A stretch of DNA of 64,000 nt from Clostridium sp. HBUAS56010 (GTDB lineage Bacteria > Bacillota > Clostridia > Lachnospirales > Lachnospiraceae): contig NZ_SULJ01000006.1 in NCBI RefSeq assembly GCF_007115105.1, positions 124,498 to 188,497 on the forward strand. Direction: 5' to 3'. Every line of letters begins with the position of its first letter. Position 1 is the first letter of the stretch. This document shows, in pieces, positions 47,574 to 64,000 of this stretch. Both the position numbers and the translations under genes were made by a program. The notes below the pieces were generated by a model. It saw only the letters and a list, made by a program, of their open reading frames with translations. It searched no databases and had not been told where the DNA came from.

Positions 47574-48584
47574 TCACCTTGACAATTTATCATCCCTGAA
47601 TTCAAATGGTGTCATTCCATAAACCTTTTTAAATACCCTGGAAAAATTACTGCTGTTGCTATACCCGATCTCACTGGCAATGTCAGACACACTCTGATCC
47701 GTAGCTGCTAAAAGATTGACTGCCTTTGTCATTCGCAAAGAACGCAGAAACTGACCGATGGTGCTGTGATAATAATGGGAAAATTCCACACGCAGCTTCT
47801 GCTCATTCAAAAACACCCTCTGGCTCAGTTCCTTAATGCTTGGAGGATTGCTAAATTCCGCACATAAAATATCATGGGCCTCGTTTAATGCTTTAATATC
47901 CGAAGAATTCAGCCGGAGGATACGGCTCTTGCCAACGGCTATCTTTCCATAATTCACTTGAAGGCTGTCAATATGATTCTTACTTACTGCCACTGCCGAT
48001 GTCAGAATGGAAAGACATTCCAAGACTTTGCTTTCCAGGAAAATCGGTTGAATTAAACGAGTTTCCATATGCCCTCTTATGGTTTCAATAATCCTTATCA
48101 TTTCCTCCGGCATATAAAAGTAGGTACGGTTTTTCTCAAACTGATCCATGATCTGATTTTCTGGAGATATGGATTTTATTACGTCTCTGAAATACGGTTC
48201 GTATACGGATATTTCAATTCCGTATAGATGCTGTCCCTTTTTCCACCTCTGTGTTCCGCTGACAGCACTTTCCATTACACAAAAGGACGATGGAGTGGAA
48301 CGGATGGTTCCCTCATGTTTTAGTTCTACTTCTGTCTTTCCTTCGTAGAATAACCCGAATTTCAAAAATGTCATGTCATGAGAAAAAGGCAGCACAAAAT
48401 CTTCTGCTACCGTATAATTTCCAATACCAATGTTGTAATAGTCTGCCCGGTTATACTGCAGGCTATATCCCAGTTCCGGTCTGTTCCGGTTCTGATATAA
48501 TATATAATGATCCAAATATTCCGGTGTAAAGGTCAGATGCCTTAAAACATGATCGGAAAAATTCATATCCATATCCTTTTTCAT
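47574..48584 (-). CDS. AraC-family regulator of the siderophore importer
   Basis: 336 residues with a C-terminal AraC domain (about 235-333: SIKELSQRVFLNEQKLRVEF, SVSDIASEIGYSNSSNFSRV, MTPFEFRDDKL). The N-terminal two thirds resembles the YbtA/PchR group that senses iron-siderophore. Divergent from the iron-siderophore ABC operon. ATG follows CGGAG. Confidence 0.85.
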   Translation of the reverse strand: MKKDMDMNFSDHVLRHLTFTPEYLDHYILYQNRNRPELGYSLQYNRADYYNIGIGNYTVAEDFVLPFSHDMTFLKFGLFYEGKTEVELKHEGTIRSTPSSFCVMESAVSGTQRWKKGQHLYGIEISVYEPYFRDVIKSISPENQIMDQFEKNRTYFYMPEEMIRIIETIRGHMETRLIQPIFLESKVLECLSILTSAVAVSKNHIDSLQVNYGKIAVGKSRILRLNSSDIKALNEAHDILCAEFSNPPSIKELSQRVFLNEQKLRVEFSHYYHSTIGQFLRSLRMTKAVNLLAATDQSVSDIASEIGYSNSSNFSRVFKKVYGMTPFEFRDDKLSR

Positions 48585-48737: not shown

Positions 48738-49745
48738 GTGATTCAGAGAATGAAAAAACATGCACTTGCAGTAGGAACTGCACTTTTCTGTGTTGCAGTC
48801 AGTTTATCAGCCTGCGGTGGACAAAATACTGACCGCTCAGAAAGCACCAGCCCTGTGAAAGCAGAAAGTACCAGTCCCGTGAAAGCAGAAAGTGAAGACA
48901 AAATAACAGTTACCGATGTCAGAGGTCAGGTGGAGATTCCAGCCAATCCACAACGGATCGTGGATTTAAGCGGAAACAGTGACATTTTACATATCTTAGG
49001 CTATAACGTGATTGGAACCGCAAATTCTGATGCCTATGACCGTACAAAGCTTCCGCCATTTTTAAAAAATGAATTAAGTGGTGCCAAGATTGTAGGATTC
49101 AGTTTCCAGGATTCCATGGATATTGAGGGAATTCTACCTCTGGAACCGGATTTAATTATTCTTTCCACCCGTCAGGAAAAGATGTATGATCAATTAAAAA
49201 CAGTTGCTCCTGCAGTCATGATTGAACTTGCACAGATTGACTGGAAAGATGACATCCGGCAAGTGGGAACCATCTTCGGTAAAAGCAAAGAAGCAGAACA
49301 ATGGATCAGCGATTATGAAGCCAAGGGAAAAGAAAAAGGGGAAGAGGTGAAGAAAACCTTCGGTGAGGATACCACCTATCTTTCAATTCTTGCCAGCGGC
49401 GGCAAGCTCTTTGTCTTTGATGCAGCAGGCTTTGGAAGCATTCTTTATGAAGACATGGGATTAAAACGTCCCTCCGGCATGCCAAAACAGGAAAATGTCA
49501 GCCTTCCAGTAATCAATTATGAAGGATTGGCAAGTATTGAAGCAGACCGGATTCTGGCAGTTGGTACAGAGGAAGATATGGCGGCGCTGAAAGCAGATCC
49601 CATCTGGAACAGCCTTCCTGCAGTAAAGGCAGGCAATGTGGTAGAATTACCTTCCAGTCCCTATTTCAGCCAGTCTTATAGCTGCATTGGAAGAAGTCTG
49701 CTTCTCGATGAGATTTCCTCTCTTTTAGGCAACACAACACCATGA
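48738..49745 (+). CDS. Iron-siderophore ABC transporter substrate-binding lipoprotein
   Basis: 335 residues. Signal peptide with lipobox LSAC-GG near residue 27; the FepB/BtuF fold shows ITVTDVRGQVEIPANPQRIV, LGYNVIGTANSD and EPDLIILSTRQ. Start is GTG at 48738, 10 bp after AAGGAGG. After the lipid cysteine the linker contains a diverged tandem duplication of ESTSPVKA (24-bp units). First gene of the operon; its stop overlaps the next start (ATGA). Confidence 0.92.
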   Translation: MIQRMKKHALAVGTALFCVAVSLSACGGQNTDRSESTSPVKAESTSPVKAESEDKITVTDVRGQVEIPANPQRIVDLSGNSDILHILGYNVIGTANSDAYDRTKLPPFLKNELSGAKIVGFSFQDSMDIEGILPLEPDLIILSTRQEKMYDQLKTVAPAVMIELAQIDWKDDIRQVGTIFGKSKEAEQWISDYEAKGKEKGEEVKKTFGEDTTYLSILASGGKLFVFDAAGFGSILYEDMGLKRPSGMPKQENVSLPVINYEGLASIEADRILAVGTEEDMAALKADPIWNSLPAVKAGNVVELPSSPYFSQSYSCIGRSLLLDEISSLLGNTTP

Positions 49746-50725
49746 AAAAAAATATAATCTTATGTCTTTTGTTGCTTCTGCTGGCAGCGGCAGGTCTTTT
49801 GACTGCCGTCTGTGCAGGGGCAAAATCCATCCCTCTGAACGTGGTGGCAGATAGCATTCTGCACTTTGACGGAGGACTGGAAGCCTTACTTGTAAGAGAT
49901 TCCAGACTGCCCCGTGCCTTATCTTCTGCTCTGGTAGGCGGAATGCTGGCTCTGGCAGGCGCTCTTATGCAGGGAATTACAAGAAATCCTTTGGCAGAAC
50001 CGTCCATTATGGGTATGACCCAGGGTGCCACTCTGGCAGTTGCCATATCAAGCGTCAGCCTGTCTGTTTACTCCACGCTGGGAAATACAGCGGCAGCTTT
50101 AATAGGAGCTTTCTTCAGCGGAATCCTGGTTCTTTTGTTCAGTTTAAAAACGGTAAGGTCCACCAACATCACCGGACTTTTAATTGCCGGCACTGCCATA
50201 AGCACATTTTTTATATCCCTGGCTTCTATTATCGCCCTGCTTGGAAACCGCTCCCAGGAGCTCGCCTTCTGGTTATCCGGCGGATTCCGTTCTGCAAAAT
50301 GGGATTCTGTATTCTGGCTGTTTGTTATAGGAAGCTGTGCTCTTCTTTTCTCCATTTTTATGGCCAGGAAAATCAATCTGGTCTCCTTAGGAGATGAAGT
50401 TGCTCTCGGTCTTGGAGTAAAACCGGCAAGAGTCCGGATTTATTGTCTGGCAATGATTGTTCCTATCTGTGCAGTCTGTGTATCCGTCGGGGGAAACATC
50501 GCCTTTGTCGGACTGGTGATTCCCCATATTATCCGCCGGGTCGTTGGGAATAACCACAGCATTTTACTTCCGTTTTCCTTTCTGGCAGGAGCCGTTCTCA
50601 TGATATGGGCAGACATCGCAGCTAAGACTCTTAACAGCCCTTACGAAATACCGGTAGGATTGTTCAGTGCGTTCATCGGTGTTCCATTCTTTATCTATTT
50701 AGTACGAAAGGAGAAGACTTCATGA
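49742..50725 (+). CDS. FecCD-family iron-siderophore permease
   Basis: 327 residues, about nine or ten helices. Family motifs: RDSRLPRALSSALVGGMLAL, GITRNPLAEPSIMG, GGNIAFVGLVIPHIIRRVVG and NSPYEIPVGLFSAFIGVPFF. Forms a heterodimer with the next gene's product. Overlaps both neighbours by four bases. Confidence 0.93.
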   Translation: MKKNIILCLLLLLLAAAGLLTAVCAGAKSIPLNVVADSILHFDGGLEALLVRDSRLPRALSSALVGGMLALAGALMQGITRNPLAEPSIMGMTQGATLAVAISSVSLSVYSTLGNTAAALIGAFFSGILVLLFSLKTVRSTNITGLLIAGTAISTFFISLASIIALLGNRSQELAFWLSGGFRSAKWDSVFWLFVIGSCALLFSIFMARKINLVSLGDEVALGLGVKPARVRIYCLAMIVPICAVCVSVGGNIAFVGLVIPHIIRRVVGNNHSILLPFSFLAGAVLMIWADIAAKTLNSPYEIPVGLFSAFIGVPFFIYLVRKEKTS

Positions 50726-51744
50726 AGCACGGCAGTTCTATGAAACCAGCCTTTATCTTCTTTCTGATTCTCCTGATTGCCACTTGTTTCTTCGGATTAT
50801 ATTATGGTTCCTACCAGATGAATCTGGAACGGATTCTTAACACAGTCCTTGGTCATGGTACGCCCAGTGAACATCTGGCAGTCTGGGGCATCCGTATTCC
50901 AAGAATTCTGGTCGCCATTTTTGTGGGCATTGCACTTTCCTGTGCAGGCTGTACCATTCAGACTGCAACGAAAAACCCTCTGGCAGAGCCAGGAATCATC
51001 GGAATCAATGCCGGCGCCACCTTAGGCGTTGTTTTGTTAATCAATGCACAGAGTTCCGCTTATTACAGTGCTATAAAGACAGGCACCCTGCTTCTTGTAC
51101 CTGTCGTTTCTTTGACCGGTGCCCTTATAAGTTCCAGTCTTATTTATCTCCTTTCCTGTAAAAAAGGAGTACTTGGTACAAACCGGCTTTTACTTGTGGG
51201 AATTGGCTTTAACATTGGCATCAATTCCATTATCACCCTGTTTCAATTAGCCATGAATAAAGGAAACTTTCAGCAGGTATTAAACTGGACCAACGGAAGC
51301 TTGTGGGGAACCGGGTTTGCCTATCTGTTTCTTATTGCTCCCGTAACGGTTGTGGTATTTATTATTCTGCTGATTAAAAGCAAGACTCTGGATCTTATGG
51401 CACTGGGAGATGCTATGGCTCTTCATTTAGGTGTTTCCGTGGAAAAAGAACGAAAACAGCTGATTCTTCTTGCTGTTATTTTAAGTTCTGTTTCGGTTGC
51501 GGTTGCCGGAAACATTGCATTTGTAGGTCTTTTGGGTCCCCACATTGCACAGCGGGTGGCGGGTGCTGCCCACCGCAGGAAACTTTTACTGGGAGGGCTG
51601 ATCAGCGGAACGTTAGTGGTCTTTTCCGATACGTTATCCCGCAATCTCTTCTCTCCCATTGAGATCCCGCTTGGGATTGTCCTGTCCCTCATCGGTGTTC
51701 CCTATTTTATCTTTTTACTGCTGAAACAAAGGAGTTCTATATGA
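50722..51744 (+). CDS. FecCD-family iron-siderophore permease, second subunit
   Basis: 340 residues with RIPRILVAIFVGIALSCAGC, TKNPLAEPGIIGINAGA, VAGNIAFVGLLGPHIAQRVA and FSPIEIPLGIVLSLIGVPYF. Typical FecD partner. ATGA overlaps at both ends indicate a single coupled operon. Confidence 0.93.
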   Translation: MKHGSSMKPAFIFFLILLIATCFFGLYYGSYQMNLERILNTVLGHGTPSEHLAVWGIRIPRILVAIFVGIALSCAGCTIQTATKNPLAEPGIIGINAGATLGVVLLINAQSSAYYSAIKTGTLLLVPVVSLTGALISSSLIYLLSCKKGVLGTNRLLLVGIGFNIGINSIITLFQLAMNKGNFQQVLNWTNGSLWGTGFAYLFLIAPVTVVVFIILLIKSKTLDLMALGDAMALHLGVSVEKERKQLILLAVILSSVSVAVAGNIAFVGLLGPHIAQRVAGAAHRRKLLLGGLISGTLVVFSDTLSRNLFSPIEIPLGIVLSLIGVPYFIFLLLKQRSSI

Positions 51745-52529
51745 ATCTGACACATGCCATTGATATCGGCCAGCTTCAGGTCGGTTATGACAAAAAAATC
51801 ATTATACCAAATCTGAACCTTTCTATTCCGGAACATCAGATCACCATTATCATCGGACCCAATGGCTGCGGAAAATCTACTTTACTGAAAACAATTGGTC
51901 AGGTCCTCCGTCCCCAGAAGGGAACCATACAGGTCAACGGCATTTCCATCAAAGAGCAGTCTCCCAAAGAACTTGCCAGGCGGATGGCAGTTCTGCCCCA
52001 ATCCCCCCAATGTCCCGATGGATTAACGGTGCGGGAGCTGGTGAGTTACGGAAGATATCCCCATCTGTCTCTTATGAGCGGACTGAAAAAGGAGGATCAT
52101 GAAATTGTAAATCAGGCGATGAAACAAACAGGTGTGGAAGAATTTGCCGATCATTTTGTTTCAGAACTTTCCGGCGGACAGAGGCAGAGAGCCTGGATCG
52201 CCTTGGCTTTGGCACAGCGGACGGATATTTTGATTCTGGATGAGCCAACCACCTACCTGGATTTAGCGAATCAGGTGGAAATCTTAAACCTGCTGCAGAC
52301 CTTAAAAAATGAACGTTCCGTAACCGTTTTAATCGTCATGCACGAGTTAAACAATGCCATGAAATACGCCGATCATCTCATTGGAATGAGAGGCGGACAT
52401 GTCCTGTTTCAGGGAAAGCCTATTGAAGTGATTCACGAGAAGAATTTAAAACAGCTCTACGATATCCAGGCAACCATTACCAAAAGTGCCAACGGAAAAT
52501 ATCCGATCTGCGTAGACTATGAGCTCTAA
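51741..52529 (+). CDS. Iron-siderophore ABC transporter ATPase
   Basis: 262 residues, FepC type. Walker A GPNGCGKST near 40, Q-loop VLPQSPQCPDGLTVRELV, signature LSGGQRQR near 143, Walker B ILILDEPTTYLDL, H-loop IVMHELNNA. Last gene of the importer; followed by a strong terminator. Confidence 0.94.
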   Translation: MNLTHAIDIGQLQVGYDKKIIIPNLNLSIPEHQITIIIGPNGCGKSTLLKTIGQVLRPQKGTIQVNGISIKEQSPKELARRMAVLPQSPQCPDGLTVRELVSYGRYPHLSLMSGLKKEDHEIVNQAMKQTGVEEFADHFVSELSGGQRQRAWIALALAQRTDILILDEPTTYLDLANQVEILNLLQTLKNERSVTVLIVMHELNNAMKYADHLIGMRGGHVLFQGKPIEVIHEKNLKQLYDIQATITKSANGKYPICVDYEL

Positions 52530-52634: not shown

Positions 52635-53423
52635 TTATCTTGAAGTTGCCTCCATACCTCCATCCTGACGGATGCAGGCACCGGTAATATGTCCGGAACG
52701 GGCAGAAGCCAGGTAGATTGCAAGATCTGCAACCTCTTTCGGATCAGCATAACGTCCATCCGGATAAGCACCACTGAATGCTTTTTTCGCATCTTCTATG
52801 GAAACGTTTTCTCCTAAAAACTTCTTTTCAATGGAACGCATCATGGCAGTATCAATGGCTCCAGGGCAGATACAGTTCACACGGATATTGCTTGCAGCAG
52901 TCTCCAGAGCAACACATTTGGAAAGTCCTGCTACTGCATGTTTGGAAGATACATATGGAGCCATACCGGCTGCTCCCACAAAGCTTCCGTTAGAAGCTAT
53001 ATTAACAATAGAACCGCTCTTTTGTTTCATCATCTGACGTACTGCATATTTCATACCGTACATAGGACCAAATAGATTAATATTATAAACTTTCATAAAG
53101 TCTTCATAAGTCTGTTCTGTAATTGGTGCATTACGGCCGTCATATCCAGCATTATTCACCTGTACATCCAGACCGCCAAAGGTTTCAACGGTTTTATCCA
53201 CCATCGCCTGGACCTGATCTTCTTTCGTTACATCTACCACAAATGTGAGCAGATGGTCTGCCGGGAGATTCAACAATGGAACGAGCTTGTCCAGTTTTTC
53301 CTGCTTTGTAGAAGATATGGCAAGTTTACAGCCTTCTGCTGCAAACGCTTTTGTCAAAGCTTCACCTACACCTCCGGTTGAACCAGTAATCATAACAACC
53401 TTATCTTTTAATTCTAAATCCAT
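52635..53423 (-). CDS. SDR-family oxidoreductase
   Basis: 262 residues from ATG 53423 (GGGAGAA upstream; a longer frame to 53474 has no such site). Classical SDR: MITGSTGGVGEALT near 11-24, NNAGYD near 90, catalytic YVSSK near 158, and DGGMEAT at the C-terminus. Substrate unknown; the closest named relatives are 3-ketoacyl-ACP, glucose and steroid dehydrogenases. Single gene. Confidence 0.87.
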   Translation of the reverse strand: MDLELKDKVVMITGSTGGVGEALTKAFAAEGCKLAISSTKQEKLDKLVPLLNLPADHLLTFVVDVTKEDQVQAMVDKTVETFGGLDVQVNNAGYDGRNAPITEQTYEDFMKVYNINLFGPMYGMKYAVRQMMKQKSGSIVNIASNGSFVGAAGMAPYVSSKHAVAGLSKCVALETAASNIRVNCICPGAIDTAMMRSIEKKFLGENVSIEDAKKAFSGAYPDGRYADPKEVADLAIYLASARSGHITGACIRQDGGMEATSR

Positions 53424-53623
53424 AATATCACATTCTCCCTTCTTTTCTAATTTTAGGTACTCTCTTAAATCCAAGTACTCTGTTCCTTATTATAACACAA
53501 AATGTTAAAGAAAACCATTTTCTTTTCAGGAGAGAAAGACGGGAATCTGTATTATTTTTTCTTCACCAAATAGTATATCTTGTTAGCCCAATCAGAAGCC
53601 AAAGCTCCATTGCGTTTTGTATT

Positions 53624-54499
53624 TTACCTTATGCTCTTTGAAACAGAATTTGTCAACAGAATTTCAAACCCTTTTCCAACCACCTCTTTTGCATCCAGAA
53701 TCGTCATGAATGCCCTGGGATCTTCTTCCATCACAATACGTTTCACTCTGGCAAGCTGTGTCAGCTTAATGACACAGTAAATCATATGCTTATCCGTTCC
53801 GGTATATCCTCCCTCTCCATTTATATAAGTAATTCCTCTTTTAGGATTTACCATGATTCTGGCTGCAATCTCCCGGTACTGATCGGAAACAATGATAACG
53901 GTTTTCTTCCGGTTAAATCCTTCTATCACGTTATCAATAACAAGATTTGCAATGTATCTTGCCAGTATGGTATAAAGCGCAATATTTAATCCGAATATAA
54001 AACCTGCACAGACAATTAAAATTGCATTAAAAACCATGTCAACCGTACCAATGCTTACTCCGGCGTATTTGCTGATGATTTTTCCAAGAATATTCATGCC
54101 GCCCAAGGCTCCGTCATGGCGCAGGGCAAGACCAACACCTCCGCCCAGAATCACACTGCCAAATATAATTGCAACAATAATATTATCAATGGGAAGTACT
54201 ATTTCCTGAGTAAGATATAAAAATACAGAAATTGAACTGATTCCTACCGCACTTTTAATTGCAAACATGGGACTGATCCACTTTATTCCAATCATTACAA
54301 AAATAATGTTCAGTAAAAAAGAGAAAAATGAAATACTTGTTCCCAAAGAATAATGCAAAAGCAGCGCCACGCCATTAAACCCTGTACTCAGCAGTTTAAA
54401 TTGGGTATAAATACTGTTTGTAGCAAATGCAAATAAAAAACCTCCTACCAGAATACAGGCAAAATCTGCTGCCAGCTTCCTGTTTTTTTTATTTTTCAT
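53624..54499 (-). CDS. YitT-family membrane protein (DUF2179)
   Basis: 291 residues: five or six transmembrane helices (about 10-180, GGGVGLALRHDGALGGMNIL) and a C-terminal DUF2179 domain (GEGGYTGTDKHMIYCVIKLT, then DPRAFMTILDAKEVVGKGF). Function unknown; putative transporter or regulator. It begins 6 bp after hutD, so it is probably the last gene of the urocanate operon. The 53475-53623 gap shows no gene. Confidence 0.85.
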   Translation of the reverse strand: MKNKKNRKLAADFACILVGGFLFAFATNSIYTQFKLLSTGFNGVALLLHYSLGTSISFFSFLLNIIFVMIGIKWISPMFAIKSAVGISSISVFLYLTQEIVLPIDNIIVAIIFGSVILGGGVGLALRHDGALGGMNILGKIISKYAGVSIGTVDMVFNAILIVCAGFIFGLNIALYTILARYIANLVIDNVIEGFNRKKTVIIVSDQYREIAARIMVNPKRGITYINGEGGYTGTDKHMIYCVIKLTQLARVKRIVMEEDPRAFMTILDAKEVVGKGFEILLTNSVSKSIR

Positions 54500-54505
54500 A
54501 GCAAT

Positions 54506-55105
54506 CTAGCCCTTAGACGCAATGCAGCACAATGCCAACAGCGTATTTTCGTCCTTTCTGATGATCTTTAACCGGTTCCCTGGTTTCCTGATTTTTTGAA
54601 TCACCAGAGTTTCCTCGCCTTGGATCGGAATAACCTTCTCATAAAATGCTGCATCAAAACCTCCAGAAAAGGAATAAAGAATGTATTGGGCGCCATGTTC
54701 CAAATCAAATTCCCATGAAGTTTCTTTCATCTGCATGATCTGGACTTTCCCCTCCAGTCCCTTTTGAAACATCAGATTAAAATCTTTGCACCGACCATAG
54801 CTTGTGATGGGAACTTCACCCCCAAACTGAAACTGCTCCAGTGGTTTTAACGGAATAAGAGGTGTTTCCTTCTGCTGCTCCAATTTAATGCTTCCTTCCA
54901 GAACAGTCAGAATCCGGTTATAATTATCTAACTTCGTAAAAGAAGAGACTTCCTCCATTACACTGGCAAGGCTGATACGATATAAAAAATCCTGTTCTTC
55001 ATATTGTGCCGTTTCCGGATAAATGTAAATCTGGGTTGTGTCTCCCCCGCTCCAGGCGGTTGTTTTATAGTCTATTTTTCTTAAAATTTTTATATTGGCA
55101 TCCAT
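54506..55105 (-). CDS. hutD: HutD-family protein
   Basis: 199 residues, bicupin fold typical of HutD/YedM: DYKTTAWSGGDTTQIYIYP near the start, FLYRISLASVMEEVSSFTKL, and FEFDLEHGAQ-like middle. HutD accompanies histidine-utilization genes and is thought to bind N-formimino- or urocanate-type metabolites and limit pathway flux. Starts 2 bp after hutI. Confidence 0.85.
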   Translation of the reverse strand: MDANIKILRKIDYKTTAWSGGDTTQIYIYPETAQYEEQDFLYRISLASVMEEVSSFTKLDNYNRILTVLEGSIKLEQQKETPLIPLKPLEQFQFGGEVPITSYGRCKDFNLMFQKGLEGKVQIMQMKETSWEFDLEHGAQYILYSFSGGFDAAFYEKVIPIQGEETLVIQKIRKPGNRLKIIRKDENTLLALCCIASKG

Positions 55106-55107
55106 AA

Positions 55108-56385
55108 TCAGCTTTCTTCTTTTTCATAAACCAACTGTCCATTTTTTATCACTGTATGAACAATGTTTTTAGCAGTATGATAGATCAAAAAACGGTAATC
55201 GGGATAATCCAGCAATACAATATCGCCTTGTTTTCCTGTTTCCAGAGTTCCTATTTTATCTGCACGGTTAAGGGCAGATGCTCCATTGATGGTCAGAGCT
55301 GTAATGGCTTCTGGCAAAGTCATTTTCATCTTTAAAACTGCCAGGGAAAGCATTAAGGGAATGGAATTGGTAAAGCAGCTTCCCGGGTTAAAATCCGTTG
55401 CTAAGGCAAGCCCGCATCCCGCATCTATCATTTTCTTTGCTGGAGCAAAGGGCTTATTTAAGCAAAATGCAGTACAAGGCAGCACAGTTGCAACGGTTCC
55501 GCTTTCTGCCAGAGCAGATATGGAGGATTCCGAGATCATCAATAAATGATCTGCCGATACAGCTCCCAGTTCTGCTCCAAGCCTTCCGCCTCCCAGATCA
55601 TAAATTTCATCTGCATGAAGTTTAATCTGATAGCCCATTTTCTTTGCTTCTGTTAAGAAAATCCTGCTCTGTTCTATATCAAAAGCTTCTTCCTCACAGA
55701 AAATATCGCAAAACTCTGCAAGATCTGCTTCCTTTATTTGGGGCAATACAACCTCTGTCATATAGGTGACATACCCGGCAGGATCGTCTTTATATTCCAT
55801 TGGCACCGCATGGGCGCCCAGATAAGTAGGAACAATTTCAACCGGATGGGTTTCATTCAGCCGTTTCATTGCCCGAAGCTGTTTTTGTTCACATTCCAGA
55901 TCCAGCCCATAGCCGCTTTTCCCCTCTACCGTGGTAACGCCCTGGGAAAGCATATCGTTTAAGCGCTTTCTTCCGTCAGAAATAAGCTGGTCTTCCTCAT
56001 AGCTCCTTGTTGCATTTACCGTACTCTGAATTCCGCCGCCTTTTCTCATAATATCCAGATAGGATGCTCCGGACAGACGTTCCATAAACTCAGCCTCCCG
56101 GTATCCTCCGAAGATAAAATGGGTATGGGAGTCCACAAATCCCGGCAATGCGGCTTTTCCAGCTCCATCAATGACCTGAATGCCATCAGGAATCTGTTCT
56201 ATGCTCCAGGCTCCAAGTCTTTGCAGAACGTCTTCGTTTGTGCCCAGAAATAATATGATACCGTCCTCCATATAAATGCTGGCATGATGTATCACCTCTA
56301 ACTGATCCATCTCTTTGCCTTTTTTTATATGGCTGCCTTTTGGCGTAACAATCTGGGAGCAGTTATATAACAATACTTTGTTCAA
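55108..56385 (-). CDS. hutI: Imidazolonepropionase
   Basis: 425 residues; hydrolyses 4-imidazolone-5-propionate to N-formimino-L-glutamate. Metal ligands in PGFVDSHTHFIFGG near 77, HADEIYDLGG near 249, and ALATDFNPGS near 322. EGKSGYGLD near 153 is another family hallmark. Follows hutU by 30 bp. Confidence 0.95.
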   Translation of the reverse strand: MNKVLLYNCSQIVTPKGSHIKKGKEMDQLEVIHHASIYMEDGIILFLGTNEDVLQRLGAWSIEQIPDGIQVIDGAGKAALPGFVDSHTHFIFGGYREAEFMERLSGASYLDIMRKGGGIQSTVNATRSYEEDQLISDGRKRLNDMLSQGVTTVEGKSGYGLDLECEQKQLRAMKRLNETHPVEIVPTYLGAHAVPMEYKDDPAGYVTYMTEVVLPQIKEADLAEFCDIFCEEEAFDIEQSRIFLTEAKKMGYQIKLHADEIYDLGGGRLGAELGAVSADHLLMISESSISALAESGTVATVLPCTAFCLNKPFAPAKKMIDAGCGLALATDFNPGSCFTNSIPLMLSLAVLKMKMTLPEAITALTINGASALNRADKIGTLETGKQGDIVLLDYPDYRFLIYHTAKNIVHTVIKNGQLVYEKEES

Positions 56386-56415
56386 CGGATTCCCCTTCTT
56401 TCCACCTTTTTCTTC

Positions 56416-58425
56416 TTACTGCCGGAATGTTTTTTCTACTGCCTGTTTTACCAGTGCTTCATCAGCTACATGAGGAATGGTTATCACTGCCTTTCCCTCA
56501 TAGGTTTTATTAAATTGAACCGACGTCTCGATTGCATTTTCATTTCTCGCCCAGTTTCTTCTGGCAACACCGCCCATGACATCCCAGATCATGGCACTTT
56601 TAATAATCTCATCAATCCTCTGACTTCCATCCAATACCAGACCAAAGCCTCCGTTAATGGATTTTCCAATCCCAACACCGCCCCCATTATGCAATGCCAC
56701 CAGACTCATTCCTCTGGCTGCATTTCCAACATAGCACTGAACTGCCATGTCTGCCATAACATTACTTCCGTCTTTGATGTTGGAAGTTTCACGAAATGGG
56801 GAATCCGTACCGCTTACATCGTGATGGTCTCTGCCTAACATAATGGGACCAACTTCTTTATTTCTCACCATTTCATTAAAGCGGAGAGCAATGTTTTTCC
56901 GTCCTTCGGCGTCCTGATAAAGGATTCTTGCCCTGGTCCCTACTACAAGCTGGTTCTTTTTGGCATCCCGGATCCAGTTATAATTATCTAAATCCTGATA
57001 CCTCCGGTCTTTGTCAATGCTTTCCATCGCCGCCTGGTCTGTTTTATCCAGGTCCTCTTCTCTTCCGCTTAAACATACCCAGCGGAACGGACCATAGCCA
57101 TAATCAAACAATTGGGGACCCATAATATCTTCCACATAAGAGGGATATATAAATCCATCCTTATCATCAATTCCATTTCTTGATACTTCTTTTACACCTG
57201 CATCAAATACTGCTTTTAAAAATGCGTTTCCGTAATCAAAGAAATAAGTGCCGTTTTCCACACAGGTTTTTACTAGTTCAATATGCTTTCTTAAGGTCTT
57301 ATCCACCATTTCAATAAAACGCTTCCGGTCCTCTTTTAACAGTACCGTCCGCTCTTCAAATGTGACACCCTGCGGACAGTAACCGCCTTCATGGGCCGCA
57401 TGACAGGAAGTCTGGTCGGATAGTAAATCAATCTTAATGTGATGGTCCACTGCATATTGGAGTAAATCAACAATATTGCCGTGATAAGCAATGGAAATGG
57501 ATTGTTTTTTCTCCATATATTCTTTTGCAAGCTTATAAACAACTCCTAAATCAGAGGATGATTCCTTCACCCAGCCCTGATCCATTCTTGTTTTAATTCT
57601 AGACTTATCCACTTCTGCAACAATTCCCACTCCGCCTGCAATCTCAATGGCTTTTGGCTGTGCACCGCTCATTCCTCCAAGACCGGAGCTTACAAATAAT
57701 ACACCGCTTAAATCCTTGTCGTTGGCGATCCCAAGCTGCTGTCTGCCAGCGTTTAATAAGGTGTTGTAGGTGCCGTGGACAATGCCCTGAGGACCTATGT
57801 ACATCCAGCCGCCTGCTGTCATCTGTCCGTAATTGGCAACCCCCATCTCTTCTGCCACTTCCCAGTCAGCCGGATTATCAAACATGCCAATCATCAATGC
57901 GTTGGTTATGGTAACTCTCGGAGCATCTTTTTTAGAATAAAACAGCCCCAGAGGATGTCCTGATTCCAGAACCAGCGTCTGTTCATCGGTTAACAATTCC
58001 AGATACTGCATGGTCAGACGATACTGCATCCAGTTTTGAAAGACGCTTCCTGTCTCCCCATAGGTAACCAGTTCATAGGGATACAGCGCAACATCAAAAT
58101 CCAGATTGTTATTGATCATCACCTGAAACGCCCTGCCTTCCACGCAGTTGCCTTTGTAATCATCAATGGAGCCGCCTTTGATTCCTTCTGCCGGACGAAA
58201 GCGGTAGCCGTAAATTCTTCCATAAGTATACAGCTCCTTAAGAAACTCTGGAATGATTGTTTCATGAAGATCCCGATGAATGTAACGCAGGGCATTCTTA
58301 AGTGCCGTTACGGTCTGCTCTTTTGTCAGGCGGAAGCCTCTGGAAGGCGCCCTGCGGATTCCAGGTTCAAACACAGGCATTGGCGGCAAAGTATCAATGG
58401 TCATTTTTATATTTAATGGTGTCAT
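56416..58425 (-). CDS. hutU: Urocanate hydratase
   Basis: 669 residues (ATG 58425 with GGAAGGAGAA), the long clostridial/eukaryotic form rather than the 550-residue proteobacterial one. NAD-dependent hydration of urocanate to imidazolonepropionate. Characteristic parts: FVSSGLGGMSGAQPKAIEIA near 248, YHGNIVDLLQ, DQTSCHAAHEGGYCPQG with the active-site cysteine region near 365, and HNGGGVGIGKSINGGFGLVL near 590. Overlap-free but only 1 bp from the AcnX small subunit stop. Confidence 0.95.
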   Translation of the reverse strand: MTPLNIKMTIDTLPPMPVFEPGIRRAPSRGFRLTKEQTVTALKNALRYIHRDLHETIIPEFLKELYTYGRIYGYRFRPAEGIKGGSIDDYKGNCVEGRAFQVMINNNLDFDVALYPYELVTYGETGSVFQNWMQYRLTMQYLELLTDEQTLVLESGHPLGLFYSKKDAPRVTITNALMIGMFDNPADWEVAEEMGVANYGQMTAGGWMYIGPQGIVHGTYNTLLNAGRQQLGIANDKDLSGVLFVSSGLGGMSGAQPKAIEIAGGVGIVAEVDKSRIKTRMDQGWVKESSSDLGVVYKLAKEYMEKKQSISIAYHGNIVDLLQYAVDHHIKIDLLSDQTSCHAAHEGGYCPQGVTFEERTVLLKEDRKRFIEMVDKTLRKHIELVKTCVENGTYFFDYGNAFLKAVFDAGVKEVSRNGIDDKDGFIYPSYVEDIMGPQLFDYGYGPFRWVCLSGREEDLDKTDQAAMESIDKDRRYQDLDNYNWIRDAKKNQLVVGTRARILYQDAEGRKNIALRFNEMVRNKEVGPIMLGRDHHDVSGTDSPFRETSNIKDGSNVMADMAVQCYVGNAARGMSLVALHNGGGVGIGKSINGGFGLVLDGSQRIDEIIKSAMIWDVMGGVARRNWARNENAIETSVQFNKTYEGKAVITIPHVADEALVKQAVEKTFRQ

Positions 58426-58426
58426 G

Positions 58427-58837
58427 TCAGTGTTCTCCTTCCCATATAATCCGCCCCTCAGTTGCATTTAAGGTGATGGTATCTCCGTCTTTTATGGTTT
58501 CATAGAATCTGTCTTCTGCCTTATCCACAAGAGGGGCTTCCATAATAATTGCACTTGCAACCAGAGTGGTATCCGGATTTTTAATAATCATTCCCTTTGG
58601 TTCCATTCCTGTCATCTTTAACTGGTACATTCCGTCTGCCTGAACCACAGAACTTCCCTTTCCGTTGGGAAATACCAATATTTTATTTGCAATGCACCTG
58701 CCGTAGAGACAATGCTGTTTTTCAATTACAACTCCGGTTTTAGGGTCTACCAGATAAAAACAGAAATCATCTTTTGATATTAAAACTTCTCCGGTTACAA
58801 TTCCTTCGGATATTTTATGACACTGAAATTCCTGCAT
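58427..58837 (-). CDS. Aconitase X small (swivel) subunit
   Basis: 136 residues of the DUF126/AcnX swivel domain: GIVTGEVLISKDDFCFYLVD near 12, GRCIANKILVFPNGKGSSVV near 45 with the conserved P-x-G-K-G-S-S, and EAPLVDKAED, then DGDTITLNATEG. It closes over the catalytic subunit in a dehydratase. Its ATG overlaps the stop of the large subunit gene by one base (TAATG). Confidence 0.87.
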   Translation of the reverse strand: MQEFQCHKISEGIVTGEVLISKDDFCFYLVDPKTGVVIEKQHCLYGRCIANKILVFPNGKGSSVVQADGMYQLKMTGMEPKGMIIKNPDTTLVASAIIMEAPLVDKAEDRFYETIKDGDTITLNATEGRIIWEGEH

Positions 58838-60036
58838 TAGATTTCTCCTTTCAAAGCGGCTTTTACGGAATCTTCCAAACTGGTTATTACAAACTGCATA
58901 TCACGCCGTTTGGTATAATAGGCACATTTTGGCGAATCCGTCACTCCTTTTTTTCCATAAAGAAAATGCCAGCTTGGCTGATCCATGCAGGTATCCGCCA
59001 TTAAATGACCACCTGCCTTTTCGATTGTTTCCCGAAGTCCCATCTGGGTTGCTAAATTCCTGGTTGAGGCACTGCACATAATAAATAAGGGCACTGCCAG
59101 CTTACTTCCTTCCACCAGCTCTGCAACCTTTATGATCTGATGAATGGTCAGATGGGGACATCCAAACAAAGCAAAATCAATCTTACCGCCTGCATCTGTT
59201 AAATCTGCTCTCATCTGTTCCAGATCCTGATTGGTGATTACCACTTCTTTCTCAGGAGCTTTCCCATGGAATGCAGCTTCCACGGTTGGTGCCTCCGGCG
59301 TAAATCCTACAATGTGATAGATGGCAACATTGCCTCCGGTATTTAACTGTGCACCAAGATTCATCAGTGCTTCCTTGGAGGGATTCTCAATACCGGTAAA
59401 GACAGGAATTTTAAAGCCGGTGAACTTTGGTGTTACATATCCAAGCATCTGGTAATCAAAATCACTCTTTAAATCAGCCTCCACCCGTACCAGTACTTCC
59501 CCTTTCCGGTTCTCATCAAGCAGGTACCCATAATATGGCGTAACCCCTGTAATGGCAGAACAAAGAGCGCTTTGTGCTGCTTCCCGGTTGCTTCTGGCTC
59601 CGTACACCGAGTTCACAAATGGGGTTGCACTGGATTCAGAGAAAGAAATCACTTCCCCAAATCTTGGGACATTATGTTCTAAATAAGGGGTACAGTCATA
59701 GGTCATAATCGCACCCAGTCTGGTATATGCGGCGTGGGTTCTTTTTACAATCTCCTCATCCATCGGGGCAATGGTTGTAATCTCTTTAAATTGTTCCAGG
59801 TTAAAGCTTGGATTTACCGTAGGGGGCACCGCACATTTTGCTCCCATATTAACCAGCTTTTCTGCAAACCATAAGTCTGCCTCCTGATTGCTTAACGCTA
59901 CATGGGTTCTTGTTACAGGCACCATGTAAGGAGCATCAAAAGATTCCCCTACTGCTACCAATATCTTCATGGCTAATTGCGTACCTGCTCCCATCTTCCC
60001 ATCCAGCATATCCTGTTCTTTTTTTGTTAACTGCAT
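58837..60036 (-). CDS. Aconitase X catalytic subunit
   Basis: 399 residues, DUF521/AcnX family. Cysteines likely to hold the iron-sulfur cluster or lie in the active site: YDCTPYLEHNVPRFGE near 112, ALFGCPHLTIHQI near 291, IMCSASTRNLATQMG near 325, ADTCMDQPSW near 350. GARSNREAAQSALCSAITG near 146 is diagnostic. Characterised members dehydrate cis-3-hydroxyproline or mevalonate 5-phosphate. Nothing known links AcnX to urocanate breakdown, yet it lies in the middle of that operon with tight spacing. Confidence 0.88.
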   Translation of the reverse strand: MQLTKKEQDMLDGKMGAGTQLAMKILVAVGESFDAPYMVPVTRTHVALSNQEADLWFAEKLVNMGAKCAVPPTVNPSFNLEQFKEITTIAPMDEEIVKRTHAAYTRLGAIMTYDCTPYLEHNVPRFGEVISFSESSATPFVNSVYGARSNREAAQSALCSAITGVTPYYGYLLDENRKGEVLVRVEADLKSDFDYQMLGYVTPKFTGFKIPVFTGIENPSKEALMNLGAQLNTGGNVAIYHIVGFTPEAPTVEAAFHGKAPEKEVVITNQDLEQMRADLTDAGGKIDFALFGCPHLTIHQIIKVAELVEGSKLAVPLFIMCSASTRNLATQMGLRETIEKAGGHLMADTCMDQPSWHFLYGKKGVTDSPKCAYYTKRRDMQFVITSLEDSVKAALKGEI

Positions 60037-60049
60037 CCTATGACTCCTT

Positions 60050-61384
60050 TCATTTATAAAACCGGCTCATGGTATCTTTTACGCCTTTTATCACACTATC
60101 TTCTGTGAGTTTTCTAAGCTTTCCATGAGATACGGTGACCTCTCCGTTGACTACTACATGCTTTAACGCGGTTGGTTCCATGGAATACACAATGTTTGGG
60201 AGCATTTGTTCAAATTGTTCATTCAACGGCTGCATGGAGAAATCACTTAAATCAATGGAAACAAAATCCGCTTTCATTCCTTCTTTTATTTCTCCCACCG
60301 GCAGATCCAGAATCTTCCCCCCATTCACCGTTCCCATGGCAAAGCTCTGGTTATAATTTACACACATGGCATTGCAGGTGCTTGCTTTTTGAAGAATGGA
60401 TACCATCCGCATCTCTTCAAATACACTGATCCGGTTATTGCTGCATGCTCCGTCAGAACCAAGTCCAATAGTAACGCCTGCTTCCATCATGGCGGGAATG
60501 TTGGTAATTCCATCTGCTAAAAACATATTGCTGGAAGGGCAGTAGGCGAGAGATACCCCTTTTTTCCCAAGAAGTTTTATCTCTTCTTCCCTTAAATAAA
60601 CACCATGGACAATCATCATGTGTTCATCCACCACTCCAATGGAATTTAAGTATTCAATGACGGTCATACCATTATGTGCCAGCCTGCATTCTTCCACCTC
60701 AAAGGGTTCTTCTGCAACATGAATGTGAAATTTTGTTCCCAGTTCCTCTGCCAGCCTGTGACCTGCCATAATCATCTCTGTGGTCGCCGCATGAAGGCTG
60801 TGAGGTGCCGGAACAATGTTTACCATGTCGTCTTCTTTGTATCTGTAAAAAAGCTCTCTGGTAGAAGTAACCGCTTCTTCAATCGTCTCCACATATCCTT
60901 TTGGTGCTCCCTTCCAGTCATACATGGTTCTTGCAAGCACCAGACGGATTCCGACATCCTTTGCCGCCTGTATCACCGCTTCATCGCTTTCCATTCCAAA
61001 ATTGTGAAGATAAAAGAAATCACAGACTGTGGTCACTCCCCTTTTCATCATTTCTGAAAAAGCAAATACAGCGCCGTTATAGATATCCTCTAATGTCATC
61101 TTGTTTGAAAACTTATAAAGGGACTCATCTCTCCATTCCAAAAATGGCCGGTCTGCGCCGATGCCCCGAAGAAGACTTTGAAAACTGTGATTGTGAACAT
61201 TTACAGTTCCGGCAACCATTACCTGGTCTTTCCAACAGATGATTTCATTAATCTGCTCTTTGTATTGTGCCTCCAGTTCTGCTACGGGTTTTACTGCTTT
61301 TATGGTATCTCCCTCCACCAGTACCCCGTAATCCCGGTAAAAGCCTCCATTATAATGGAGCATTTCAGCTCTAAACAGTTTCAT
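60050..61384 (-). CDS. HutF-like amidohydrolase (formimidoylglutamate deiminase candidate)
   Basis: 444 residues, metal-dependent amidohydrolase. Ligands in VNVHNHSFQSLLRG near 60, HSLHAATTEM near 206, FHIHVAEEPFEVEE near 228, MIVHGVYL near 266 and LGSDGACSNN near 316. The segments FLEWRDESLYKF and CDFFYLHN resemble formiminoglutamate deiminase (HutF), which would deiminate formiminoglutamate to N-formylglutamate. SAH/guanine-deaminase relatives and hydantoinases remain possible. ATG overlaps the M20 stop by four bases. Confidence 0.75.
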   Translation of the reverse strand: MKLFRAEMLHYNGGFYRDYGVLVEGDTIKAVKPVAELEAQYKEQINEIICWKDQVMVAGTVNVHNHSFQSLLRGIGADRPFLEWRDESLYKFSNKMTLEDIYNGAVFAFSEMMKRGVTTVCDFFYLHNFGMESDEAVIQAAKDVGIRLVLARTMYDWKGAPKGYVETIEEAVTSTRELFYRYKEDDMVNIVPAPHSLHAATTEMIMAGHRLAEELGTKFHIHVAEEPFEVEECRLAHNGMTVIEYLNSIGVVDEHMMIVHGVYLREEEIKLLGKKGVSLAYCPSSNMFLADGITNIPAMMEAGVTIGLGSDGACSNNRISVFEEMRMVSILQKASTCNAMCVNYNQSFAMGTVNGGKILDLPVGEIKEGMKADFVSIDLSDFSMQPLNEQFEQMLPNIVYSMEPTALKHVVVNGEVTVSHGKLRKLTEDSVIKGVKDTMSRFYK

Positions 61385-62631
61385 TCAGCCATCTCCTCAT
61401 CTAAAATCTGTACTGCCCTTAACATTGCATTGGCACATGCTTCAATGTCTTCCGGAGTGGAATATTCTTCTTTGCAATGACTTTTTCCATCCATGCTCCG
61501 GACAAATATCATTCCGCTGTCAGCAATGGATGCAACATTGGAAGCGTCATGTCCTGCCATGCTGACCAACTGCACCGGCTGTATTCCTGTCTGCTCAATT
61601 CCCTGACTGACCGCACGGATCACCACATCAGACATGGGCTGTGCCGGCTGGTTTAAAATAATGCTTCTATGTACCTTTACCCCTCTTCGGGATTCAATTT
61701 CTTTTACTCTTTCATTGATCCGGTGCTGCATCTCTGATTTTTTCTCTTCATTGGAAATTCTTACATCCAGAATCATTGCGGTGTGATCCGAAATAATATT
61801 GGCTTCATTTGGCATGTTTTTTATATAGCCAATGGTTCCAACAATGTCTTTATCCTGCAATTGCAGCAATATGGCTTCTACTGCAAGCGCAACCTCACAT
61901 GCACCCAGCAATGCATCCTTTCTGCTGTCCATCATAGTGGTTCCTGCATGGTTTGCCTCGCCGGTTACGGTGATCTGCTCCCGGTAAATTCCTGTAATAA
62001 CAGAGACACAGGCAACCGGTAAATCCATTTTTTCCAACCGGTTTCCCTGTTCGATATGACATTCAAGATATGCTCCGATGTTTTCTTTCCCCGGCAGCTG
62101 CTCCCACTGTTCAATCGCTCCTCCAAGCCTTTTTATTCCGTCCACCAGATTTTCCTTCGTGTTCCTGTGGGAATAATTTTGTATCTGGTCTTTTGTAATT
62201 CTTCCTGCCAAAGCTTTGCTTCCAAGAGTAGAGACTCCATAAGGATTTGGTTCTTCTCCGGTAAAAGAAATAATGGTCAGAGGATGCTTTAATTTTATCT
62301 TTTGTTCCATGATTGTTTCTGCAACTTCTGTTGCCATCAAAACTCCAAGGGCGCCGTCGTATTTTCCTCCGTTTGGAACCGCATCGTGATGAGAGCCAAG
62401 GACAATTGCCTTTTTATGTTCACCGTTTTCCATAGGAAGCCACATATTTGCAATGGCATCCACCTTTGTTTCCCGATGAAATGTTTCTTTCCAGTAATCC
62501 ATGAGCCATTGTCTGGCAAGTAAATCCGTTTCACTTCCCAGTACCCGGTCAACGCCGCCTTCCGGATTCTCACCTATGGTTCCTAATCTTTTTACATTCT
62601 TTATTAAACGGTCAATATTTATTTTATTCAT
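61381..62631 (-). CDS. M20-family amidase (N-carbamoyl/N-formyl amino acid hydrolase type)
   Basis: About 416 residues. Zinc ligands in LGSHHDAVPNGGKYDGALG near 77, TGEEPNPYG near 127, and the H in HIEQGNRLE near 193; GEANHAGTTMMDSRKDAL near 218 is typical of N-carbamoyl-L-amino-acid hydrolases and allantoate amidohydrolases. In this operon it may hydrolyse N-formylglutamate or N-carbamoylglutamate to glutamate, replacing HutG. The start is unclear: ATG at 62631 fits homologues but has a weak ribosome site, 62655 has GGAG too close, 62685 has none. Confidence 0.85.
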   Translation of the reverse strand: MNKINIDRLIKNVKRLGTIGENPEGGVDRVLGSETDLLARQWLMDYWKETFHRETKVDAIANMWLPMENGEHKKAIVLGSHHDAVPNGGKYDGALGVLMATEVAETIMEQKIKLKHPLTIISFTGEEPNPYGVSTLGSKALAGRITKDQIQNYSHRNTKENLVDGIKRLGGAIEQWEQLPGKENIGAYLECHIEQGNRLEKMDLPVACVSVITGIYREQITVTGEANHAGTTMMDSRKDALLGACEVALAVEAILLQLQDKDIVGTIGYIKNMPNEANIISDHTAMILDVRISNEEKKSEMQHRINERVKEIESRRGVKVHRSIILNQPAQPMSDVVIRAVSQGIEQTGIQPVQLVSMAGHDASNVASIADSGMIFVRSMDGKSHCKEEYSTPEDIEACANAMLRAVQILDEEMAE

Positions 62632-62779
62632 GGTTTTCTTTTTTATTGGTTCCATTCTCCTAATCTGTTTTATGAATAATTTCATTCACATCAGGGTACA
62701 GAAAAACACTGTAAATACTTGCCTGGATCTACAGTTTTCTGCTTCCCTATTCTGGTAAAACCGCTGTCACGTCAATGGT

Positions 62780-63637
62780 CTATCTATAAAATACACCATA
62801 TTTATTGTCATAATTCTCGATCTTTTCCAGCCTTTTATCCAAATCCGGAATCTTCTTTGATACATCCCGCAAAGTCAGATTGATAAATGCCATGGGGGTG
62901 CTGTATAAATCAAAAATAGAAGTGGTAGTAATGGGGACAACAATCGAGGGAATCTCCGCCTGTATGGTGGGAGATACTCTTCGGTCTGTCATGGCATAGA
63001 TAGAAAATCCCTCTTCTTTCAGCTCTTTTAATTTATCCACCAGTGCCTTGGAATACCTTGGAAAACAGGTGGAGATAATCAGTGCTTGCTCCGGATTTTC
63101 CAGATAAAAACGATTCCAGCCACTAGAATCCGGTGTCACAATCTCCACCTGATCCCTTAATTTATCCAGCAGATATTTCATATAGGGCAATAAGGTTGCA
63201 GACATTCTGGCTGAAACAAGGAATATCTTTTCTGCCTTTACAATGTCATCCACCATCTTCTCATAAAGACCGCCTCCTAAAACACCGGTCAGCTCCCGAA
63301 TGTTGCCTGCCTCTTTCAGCAAAATATCATCTATCTTTTTTTTGCCTGATTTGGTATATTGGTAGCGCTGGGGTGCTGTCAATTCCTCTGTCACAATCTT
63401 TTGAAGATGTTTATAAAAATCACTGTATCCTTTAAATCCCATTACCATACAGAACCTGGAAACACTTCCCTGACTCACACCACAGTTTTTAGCAACTTCC
63501 TCAGCTGTCATAAAGATGATTTTCCGATATTCTTTTTCCAGATAAAAAGCCAGCTTTTTGTAGGTTGCTGATTCGCTTGCCGCTTTCGCCATCGCATGAA
63601 ACAGTTCTTCAATATTTGAGTATTCTGCTCTCTCCAT
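62780..63637 (-). CDS. MurR/RpiR-family transcriptional regulator
   Basis: 285 residues: N-terminal HTH_6 (about 1-75, MTAEEVAKNCGVSQGSVSRF) and a C-terminal SIS domain (about 125-250, FLVSARMSATLLPYMKYLL, ALIISTCFPRYSKALVDKL). RpiR regulators sense phosphosugars or, as HutR-like members, amino-acid derivatives. It is encoded between the transporter and the catabolic genes on the same strand. Confidence 0.9.
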   Translation of the reverse strand: MERAEYSNIEELFHAMAKAASESATYKKLAFYLEKEYRKIIFMTAEEVAKNCGVSQGSVSRFCMVMGFKGYSDFYKHLQKIVTEELTAPQRYQYTKSGKKKIDDILLKEAGNIRELTGVLGGGLYEKMVDDIVKAEKIFLVSARMSATLLPYMKYLLDKLRDQVEIVTPDSSGWNRFYLENPEQALIISTCFPRYSKALVDKLKELKEEGFSIYAMTDRRVSPTIQAEIPSIVVPITTTSIFDLYSTPMAFINLTLRDVSKKIPDLDKRLEKIENYDNKYGVFYR

Positions 63638-63724
63638 AGGGGGTCCTCTTTTCGTTATCCTTCATGATTCATACAGTATTGTACCATACAAATTTCTGTA
63701 TGAACATTTTCATTTTCCCGATAA

Positions 63725-64000
63725 TCAGATCCCCTCTTTCATCAGTTTCATGCTCTCTTCCCTGATTAGTTCAAATGCCCTCATTTTATACTCAATAAAT
63801 TTCGGAGAGGATTTTACCCGGTAATCCCTTGGTCTGTCTAAATCAATGTCGATGATTTCACGGACTCTGCCGGGACGGGCTGACATGACCACAACCCGGT
63901 CTGCTAAAAAGACCGCTTCTTCGACATCATGAGTTACCATCACAATGGTCTTGGGGGATTTCTGCCATACATCCAACAGCAATTCCTGCATAATTTCCCT
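63725..64000 (-). CDS. NitT/TauT-type ABC transporter ATPase (C-terminal part)
   Basis: Only the C-terminal 91 residues are inside the window; the frame stays open to 64000. The H-loop VMVTHDVEEAVFLADRVVVM and SARPGRVREIIDIDL are typical of SsuB/TauB ATPases that drive uptake of sulfonates, nitrate, pyrimidines or related small molecules. First visible gene of the urocanate operon direction; likely the importer for its substrate. Confidence 0.85.
   Translation of the reverse strand, partial: REIMQELLLDVWQKSPKTIVMVTHDVEEAVFLADRVVVMSARPGRVREIIDIDLDRPRDYRVKSSPKFIEYKMRAFELIREESMKLMKEGI

Follow-up and report, generated by a model that had tools for sequence, protein, structure and literature searches.

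In the literature consulted, two activities have been described for enzymes of the aconitase X (AcnX) family, and the subclasses IIc to IIf appear without a function (PMC8184944). The described systems closest to the locus reported here are the archaeal phosphomevalonate dehydratase of AcnX type II (TkAcnX; structures 7cnr and 7cns), the LhpI-type AcnX, the HutF-type Hut pathway composed of HutH, HutU, HutI, HutF and HutG, and a hut operon on a plasmid of Niallia taxi. The present analysis deals with a stretch of 64,000 nucleotides from Clostridium sp. HBUAS56010 (contig NZ_SULJ01000006.1, positions 124,498 to 188,497), referred to as the window in the following, and with a minus-strand operon in it that places a two-subunit AcnX among genes for the breakdown of urocanate. 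We regard the AcnX pair as a new AcnX subfamily within a variant hut operon. Sequence comparisons indicate that the AcnX pair probably acts as a dehydratase of an imidazole-bearing hydroxy acid upstream of HutU, and that it may in this strain dehydrate imidazole-lactate to urocanate, an assignment to which we give an even chance.

The AcnX pair resembles TkAcnX in its two subunits, in the three cysteines of the cluster, in the conserved Glu, Ser, Lys and Tyr residues and in the serine base of the small subunit, but differs from it by the hut gene context, by a one-residue insertion after the catalytic serine and by the phosphate loop, since the segment Gly48-Val49-Ser50..Asn53 of the phosphomevalonate dehydratase is replaced and shortened in all 12 sequences of the clade described below. 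The LhpI-type AcnX belongs to the same family, for which dehydratase chemistry is expected, whereas the proteins of the window are two separate subunits, carry Ala47 at the position equivalent to Asp203 and score 230.8 of the 700 bits required by the LhpI (hydroxyproline) model. On the basis of model scores and pocket residues, a function in hydroxyproline or mevalonate metabolism was rejected. HutU, HutI, HutD and a HutF-like deiminase are shared with the HutF-type Hut pathway, but AcnX would fill the role of HutH and an M20 amidase takes the place of HutG.

Genetic organization of the AcnX-hut operon

The original prediction, made from the sequence of the window, had listed an operon reaching from a NitT/TauT ATPase to YitT, and all of the named genes were recovered on the minus strand in the same order. 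They are given below together with the genes found upstream of the window (locus L002); bit scores are followed by the cut-off of the respective model where one applies.

L002:15049-16017, beyond the window: D-2-hydroxyacid dehydrogenase, first gene of the operon
L002:13921-15006: importer binding protein (TIGR01728, 140.6 of 163.5 bits, below the cut-off)
L002:13047-13889, upstream of the window: importer permease, named by eye
63725..64000 (-): C-terminal part of a NitT/TauT-type ATP-binding cassette importer ATPase, named by eye; whole gene L002:12223-13026
62780..63637 (-): RpiR-family regulator (HTH_6 and SIS domains)
61381..62685 (-): amidase of the M20 hydantoinase/carbamoylase family, likely an N-formyl-L-glutamate hydrolase (TIGR01879, 302 of 204 bits)
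60050..61384 (-): HutF-like amidohydrolase, likely an N-formimino-L-glutamate deiminase
58837..60036 (-): AcnX large subunit (AcnX-L) of the Hut-linked clade (PF04412, 433 bits)
58427..58837 (-): AcnX small (swivel) subunit (AcnX-S), catalytic serine in GKGSSVVQADG (PF01989, 91 bits)
56416..58467 (-): HutU, long-type urocanate hydratase, start probably at 58425 (TIGR01228, 431.7 of 375 bits)
55108..56385 (-): HutI, imidazolonepropionase (TIGR01224, 447.6 of 298 bits)
54506..55105 (-): HutD (PF05962, 98.5 of 25 bits)
53624..54499 (-): YitT-family membrane protein with a DUF2179 domain

The edge of the window cuts the ATPase gene, and the operon extends upstream on the contig through the ATPase, permease, binding protein and dehydrogenase genes, so that the importer binding protein anticipated upstream of the window was located there. 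Distances between these four genes amount to 20-42 bp, with 42 bp separating the dehydrogenase from the binding protein gene, and the next gene beyond the dehydrogenase lies 316 bp away. Gaps of 87 bp to the RpiR gene and of 94 bp to the M20 gene follow, while the genes from M20 to YitT are spaced by -4 to 30 bp, except for a listed overlap of 41 bp between HutU and AcnX-S. The small overlaps reported earlier for several joints hold for AcnX-L/AcnX-S (1 bp) and M20/HutF-like (4 bp), whereas HutI/HutD and HutD/YitT are separated by gaps of 2 and 6 bp. The 41-bp overlap results from a HutU reading frame of 683 amino acids and is probably an artefact of the start call, because translation from the ATG of codon 15 (58425) would separate HutU from AcnX-S by 1 bp and yield a protein similar in length to the HutU of locus L004. 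The GC (guanine plus cytosine) fraction of the operon (0.427) is not clearly different from that of the window overall (0.406). A short-chain dehydrogenase gene on the same strand (window 52635-53474), 149 bp downstream of YitT, is a possible further member of the operon but was not included in it here.

The AcnX proteins form a distinct clade

Besides matching both AcnX domain families, the two proteins align with TkAcnX at the catalytic residues. The large subunits of the clade conserve the cluster cysteines Cys115, Cys293 and Cys350 as well as Glu134, Ser135, Lys370 and Tyr374, with threonine at the Ser135 position in three of the 12 sequences, and the small subunits conserve the serine base; the roles in cluster ligation, in hydroxyl and carboxylate binding and as base follow PMC8184944. 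Residues specific to the clade in the area of the pocket include R43, Q51, W56 and D352 of the large and Q66 and D68 of the small subunit. A tree of 33 AcnX proteins placed the 12 sequences in a single group with a support of 100/100. Structure predictions of AcnX-L (three sequences) had a mean pLDDT (predicted local distance difference test) of 35 and were not used.

Searches for this clade covered a family sample of 299 genomes (four with the clade and 14 with distant AcnX proteins alone, E <= 1e-20), a class sample of 391 genomes (three including that of the window, E <= 1e-90), a genus sample of 25 genomes (one, the window's own) and a phylum sample of 398 genomes (five including that of the window, E <= 1e-80). 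A scan of named genomes added two loci, of which L004 was counted as belonging to G170. Altogether, the clade was detected in 11 genomes, namely G000, G136, G170, G293, G622, G657, G807, G871, G1008, G1049 and the Selenomonadaceae genome UBA2897, with two copies in G657. Since the clade is rare and its occurrence in the window's genome is the only one in the genus sample, a horizontal spread is suggested. A second, highly divergent AcnX pair directly follows the pair of the clade in G136 (L026:8173-9887); its large subunit has alanine at the position of the active-site tyrosine and sits on a very long branch.

Association of the AcnX clade with HutU

The pairing of AcnX with HutU, the recurrence of which the original prediction had proposed to check, was observed throughout: HutU was present in all ten clade genomes searched and in the locus of UBA2897, hence in 11 of 11. 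The retrieved AcnX locus includes HutU in G000, G136, G170, G871, G1049, G1008 and UBA2897; in G293, G622, G657 and G807 it lies away from AcnX. HutU was absent from all four genomes tested among the 14 with distant AcnX proteins, and hut genes were likewise not found at distant plasmid AcnX loci by comparison with the gene panel (L065, L066) or from the annotation (L067, L085). In the phylum sample a Urocanase_N match occurred in 127 of 398 genomes as opposed to all five clade genomes (hypergeometric p=0.003, relatedness ignored). A link of the AcnX clade to urocanate metabolism is therefore well supported.

These data also bear on the possibility that AcnX is a passenger whose substrate is an unrelated hydroxy acid and whose only tie to the hut genes is common transport or regulation. 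Such a role would account for importer and regulator types that differ from locus to locus and for the four genomes (G293, G622, G657 and G807) without HutU or HutI beside AcnX, but it leaves unexplained why HutU occurs in every clade genome, whether or not it lies near AcnX, when its share of the phylum sample is 127 of 398, and why AcnX lies inside the run of hut genes in the window, G170, G871 and UBA2897. We consider it rather improbable.

Several genomes of the phylum sample contain two or three genes of the urocanase family with distinct scores within a few kb (G778:C31, G897:C53, G967:C1), and modified urocanates are possible substrates of the additional copies.

Probable enzymes for the conversion of urocanate to glutamate

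HutU and HutI of the operon both exceed the cut-offs of their models, and the closest solved relative of HutU is the urocanate hydratase 6uek (583 bits across 655 residues). The structure of the T. cruzi urocanate hydratase is cited in PMC12203737. The HutF-like enzyme remains below the cut-offs of the HutF models (191 of 413 and 228 of 362 bits); it has the motifs HNHSFQ, WR and F-YLH in common with an annotated Rhizobium HutF, and the arginine of HSLR is replaced by histidine. The residues of the corresponding HutF motifs (HxHxFQ, WR, Y) are presumably those of the active site. The nearest equivalog model of the M20 amidase is ErtE, an N-carbamyl-L-glutamate hydrolase, at 352 of 520 bits and thus below the cut-off.

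Support for a complete downstream pathway was provided by the operon of Niallia taxi (L083), in which the genes for HutH, HutU, HutI, M20 and the deiminase follow one another in this sequence. Its HutH and HutU pass their models. HutI, M20 and the deiminase are 44-53% identical between the two operons (M20 44%, HutF-like enzyme 53%), but the Niallia operon has HutH and a HutU of the short type. It occupies L083:5156-12311 on the 1.4-Mb plasmid pMEGANia, which carries only three annotated features, and the M20 gene stands where hutG would. No AcnX gene was seen in the 23 kb read around it. The earlier proposal that HutU, HutI, the HutF-like deiminase and the M20 enzyme take urocanate to glutamate is in line with this gene set, and the four enzymes plausibly complete the conversion. 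Since the Niallia set is complete without AcnX, the latter is placed upstream of urocanate, the later steps presumably being independent of it.

The ErtE match raises the alternative that the operon degrades a modified imidazole, such as an ergothioneine-type thiourocanate, S-methyl-thiourocanate or a methylhistidine, and the presence of MttB-like genes and a betaine-type importer close to AcnX in G1049 and G1008 would suit such a substrate. HutU, however, passes the urocanate model while scoring only 290 of 930 and 327 of 880 bits on the thiourocanate hydratase models, HutI passes its own model, and a related M20 enzyme is found in the HutH-bearing operon of Niallia. The ergothioneine (Ert) pathway, with neither the thiourocanate hydratase nor the ErtE cut-offs reached, is disfavoured, as are thio- and methylthio-urocanates as forms of the modified imidazole that the original prediction had considered, and of all the readings weighed here a modified imidazole is the least probable.

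Absence of HutH

The HutH family PF00221, whose namesake normally opens the breakdown of histidine, had no match in the whole genome of this gut-type bacterium (3.9 Mb, 99.85% complete), whereas the same search was positive in five of 14 control genomes; the absence of HutH noted from the window thus extends to the genome. A HutG gene was not seen by eye in the operon or in the flanks read, a genome-wide search for HutG not having been made. PF00221 was also missing from G871 (100% complete), which has the same set of M20, deiminase, AcnX, HutI and HutU genes as the window, and from G170 (79% complete). Accordingly, three of the ten clade genomes searched lacked PF00221, compared with four of 60 HutU-bearing controls (p=0.055, relatedness uncorrected). 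In the tight clade, in which M20, deiminase, AcnX and HutU occur together, the proportion was three of four (p=0.003, relatedness uncorrected), this group having been defined after the data were seen and UBA2897 having been scored from its locus alone. The 60 controls were picked by hand from the HutU list of the phylum sample and comprised 47 with HutU taken as long-type by score and length, including a few short fragments, and 13 from the upper end of the short-type list. The controls without PF00221 were G1005, G1028, G843 and G779, the last having just a fragment below the cut-off.

Proposed reaction of the AcnX pair

The gene content, the lack of a PF00221 match in the genome, the clade, its conserved catalytic residues and its association with HutU are direct observations, whereas we infer the substrate, direction and cluster type of AcnX, together with the substrates of the deiminase, the M20 amidase and the importer. 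The importer of the operon would take up an imidazole-bearing 2-hydroxy acid, most likely imidazole-lactate, which might alternatively be supplied from imidazole-pyruvate by the D-2-hydroxyacid dehydrogenase. The AcnX pair would dehydrate imidazole-lactate to urocanate, with an Fe-S cluster as Lewis acid and the serine of the small subunit as base, and would take the place of HutH as urocanate source in this strain. HutU would convert urocanate to 4-imidazolone-5-propionate and HutI the latter to N-formimino-L-glutamate, from which the HutF-like deiminase would form N-formyl-L-glutamate and the M20 enzyme L-glutamate. A HutH-free route for histidine, by transamination to imidazole-pyruvate, reduction to D-imidazole-lactate by the dehydrogenase, dehydration by AcnX and further conversion to glutamate, is a tentative extension that we rate below the AcnX step itself.

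The neighbours of AcnX in the clade genomes point to this type of substrate. 2-Hydroxy acids are the substrates of LarA enzymes and D-2-hydroxyacid dehydrogenases, and imidazole-propanoids are those of HisC and HisD. The dehydrogenases that neighbour AcnX in the window and in G293 and G622 represent one subfamily (50-56% mutual identity, 27-33% identity to a glyoxylate-reductase-like protein) that occurs with two importer types in its three genomes. The protein of the window had many matches to models of its family, none over an equivalog cut-off, and solved relatives, and it contains the motifs SRG, EPP and TPH, which we take to hold the catalytic Arg, Glu and His. In UBA2897 (L005) the gene of a LarA-type isomerase (NF052515, 484.7 of 400 bits) shares 4 bp with AcnX-L, provided that translation starts at the first ATG, and in G807 a 4-bp overlap joins AcnX-S to a HisD gene (L058:1744-3000, 489.9 of 243.8 bits). 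AcnX of G1008 is followed by a gene labelled RidA-like by eye and by HisC (362.4 of 276.6 bits); a BhcC-related gene (189 of 690 bits) lies at a greater distance. Taken together, the dehydrogenase, LarA, HisC and HisD neighbours fit imidazole-lactate. No 2-hydroxyacid or imidazole-propanoid enzyme was found next to AcnX in G871 or next to either copy in G657, and in G622 a gene passing the HutG model lies about 5 kb from AcnX on the opposite strand.

Hydro-lyases are reversible in principle, and AcnX might instead hydrate imported urocanate and so serve as an overflow or redox branch, with imidazole-lactate as the product on which the dehydrogenase and LarA would act. The importer would suit this direction as well, but HutU of the same operon competes for urocanate, and in G293 and G622 AcnX is combined with the dehydrogenase and with genes labelled by eye as a TRAP-type importer, with no HutU or HutI adjoining, which suggests the uptake of the hydroxy acid. 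The reverse reaction is thus very improbable.

Several observations weigh against the dehydration of imidazole-lactate in place of the HutH reaction. A PF00221 gene is present in eight of the 11 clade genomes (G136, G293, G622, G657, G807, G1008, G1049 and UBA2897) and lies near AcnX in UBA2897, G136, G1008 and G1049, the copy of UBA2897 being partial, at a contig end and 44% identical to the Niallia HutH, and that of G293 being about 13 kb from AcnX. A PF00221 match is not proof of HutH, because the family also holds other aromatic lyases. The anticorrelation of AcnX with hutH that the original prediction had proposed to look for is nevertheless not general and is seen in the tight clade only, and AcnX does not qualify as a strict substitute for HutH. 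Only three of the 11 genomes showed the dehydrogenase next to AcnX, and the two AcnX copies of G657 have no recognizable hut, importer or dehydrogenase genes adjoining them. LarA group 22 exceeded its cut-off in 84 of the 398 genomes of the phylum sample and is thus too common to serve as a general marker of the clade or to lend more than little weight to its single adjacency to AcnX; among the four other clade genomes of this sample it was over the cut-off in G871 (about 36 kb from AcnX) and G807 (on another contig), and two had no match among the matches listed. Furthermore, known AcnX substrates lose a hydroxyl group from C3 and a proton from C2 next to the carboxylate (PMC8184944). Imidazole-lactate would need the opposite regiochemistry, with the hydroxyl group leaving C2, the proton leaving C3 and the imidazole as activating group. 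Isocitrate reacts with this opposite regiochemistry in aconitase.

By analogy, the AcnX geometry applied to a precursor of urocanate would correspond to 3-hydroxy-3-(imidazolyl)propionate, and the conserved carboxylate-binding residues favour such a 3-hydroxy acid. AcnX could thus form urocanate from 3-hydroxy-3-(imidazol-4-yl)propionate, or imidazole-pyruvate from beta-hydroxyhistidine, with the known C2-H/C3-OH geometry retained. The carboxylate, hydroxyl and base residues of TkAcnX, as given in PMC8184944, are kept in the clade. The RidA-like, HisC and BhcC-related genes of G1008 would suit an enamine or imine product and hydroxy-amino acids, but neither reaction explains the neighbouring D-2-hydroxyacid dehydrogenase and LarA genes. 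Moreover, we know of no natural source of 3-hydroxy-3-(imidazolyl)propionate and of no route from imidazole-pyruvate derived from beta-hydroxyhistidine to HutU in genomes without HutH. A 3-hydroxy substrate is therefore unlikely, albeit the strongest of the alternatives. With respect to imidazole-lactate, one may speculate that a turned substrate could be accommodated through Arg43, which is invariant in the clade and directly precedes the former phosphate loop, and through the insertion next to the catalytic serine. The suggestion of the original prediction that AcnX makes urocanate from imidazole-lactate keeps the support of the HutU link, of the exclusion of both known activities and of the 2-hydroxyacid enzymes nearby, while its substrate is deduced indirectly and a 3-hydroxy acid is also allowed. 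Because the known AcnX geometry suits a 3-hydroxy acid, we hold imidazole-lactate at even chances and the broader role as imidazole hydroxy-acid dehydratase to be distinctly more probable.

Implications and further observations

Searches of one open-licence library returned nothing that links aconitase X with urocanate, no imidazole-lactate dehydratase yielding urocanate, nothing that joins imidazole lactate, histidine and a racemase, and nothing that joins a nickel-pincer racemase with aconitase. The phenyllactate and 2-hydroxyacyl-CoA dehydratases of Stickland metabolism do the same type of job, the conversion of an aromatic lactate to an acrylate, via CoA esters and a radical mechanism, neither of which AcnX enzymes are known to us to use. 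If the proposed reaction holds true, it would constitute a third AcnX activity and an aromatic-lactate (2-hydroxy acid) dehydratase that is free of CoA and radicals. Imidazole-lactate, the fate of which is little studied, would gain an enzyme and become a microbial source of urocanate and glutamate, and the lack of HutH would cease to imply that a genome cannot make urocanate. A clade with a short list of candidate substrates makes such a third activity directly testable.

In G1049 and G1008 (L059, L060) a single run contains HutU, a betaine-type importer, AcnX, two MttB-like proteins, B12-binding proteins and a GlmL-like protein, mostly named by eye, with the binding protein of the importer matching OsmF below the cut-off; this run may handle a histidine betaine. 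Finally, the region at 48738-52529 of the window encodes a siderophore-type binding protein, two permeases and an ATPase, next to a divergent gene for an AraC-type regulator (47574-48584; labels by eye).

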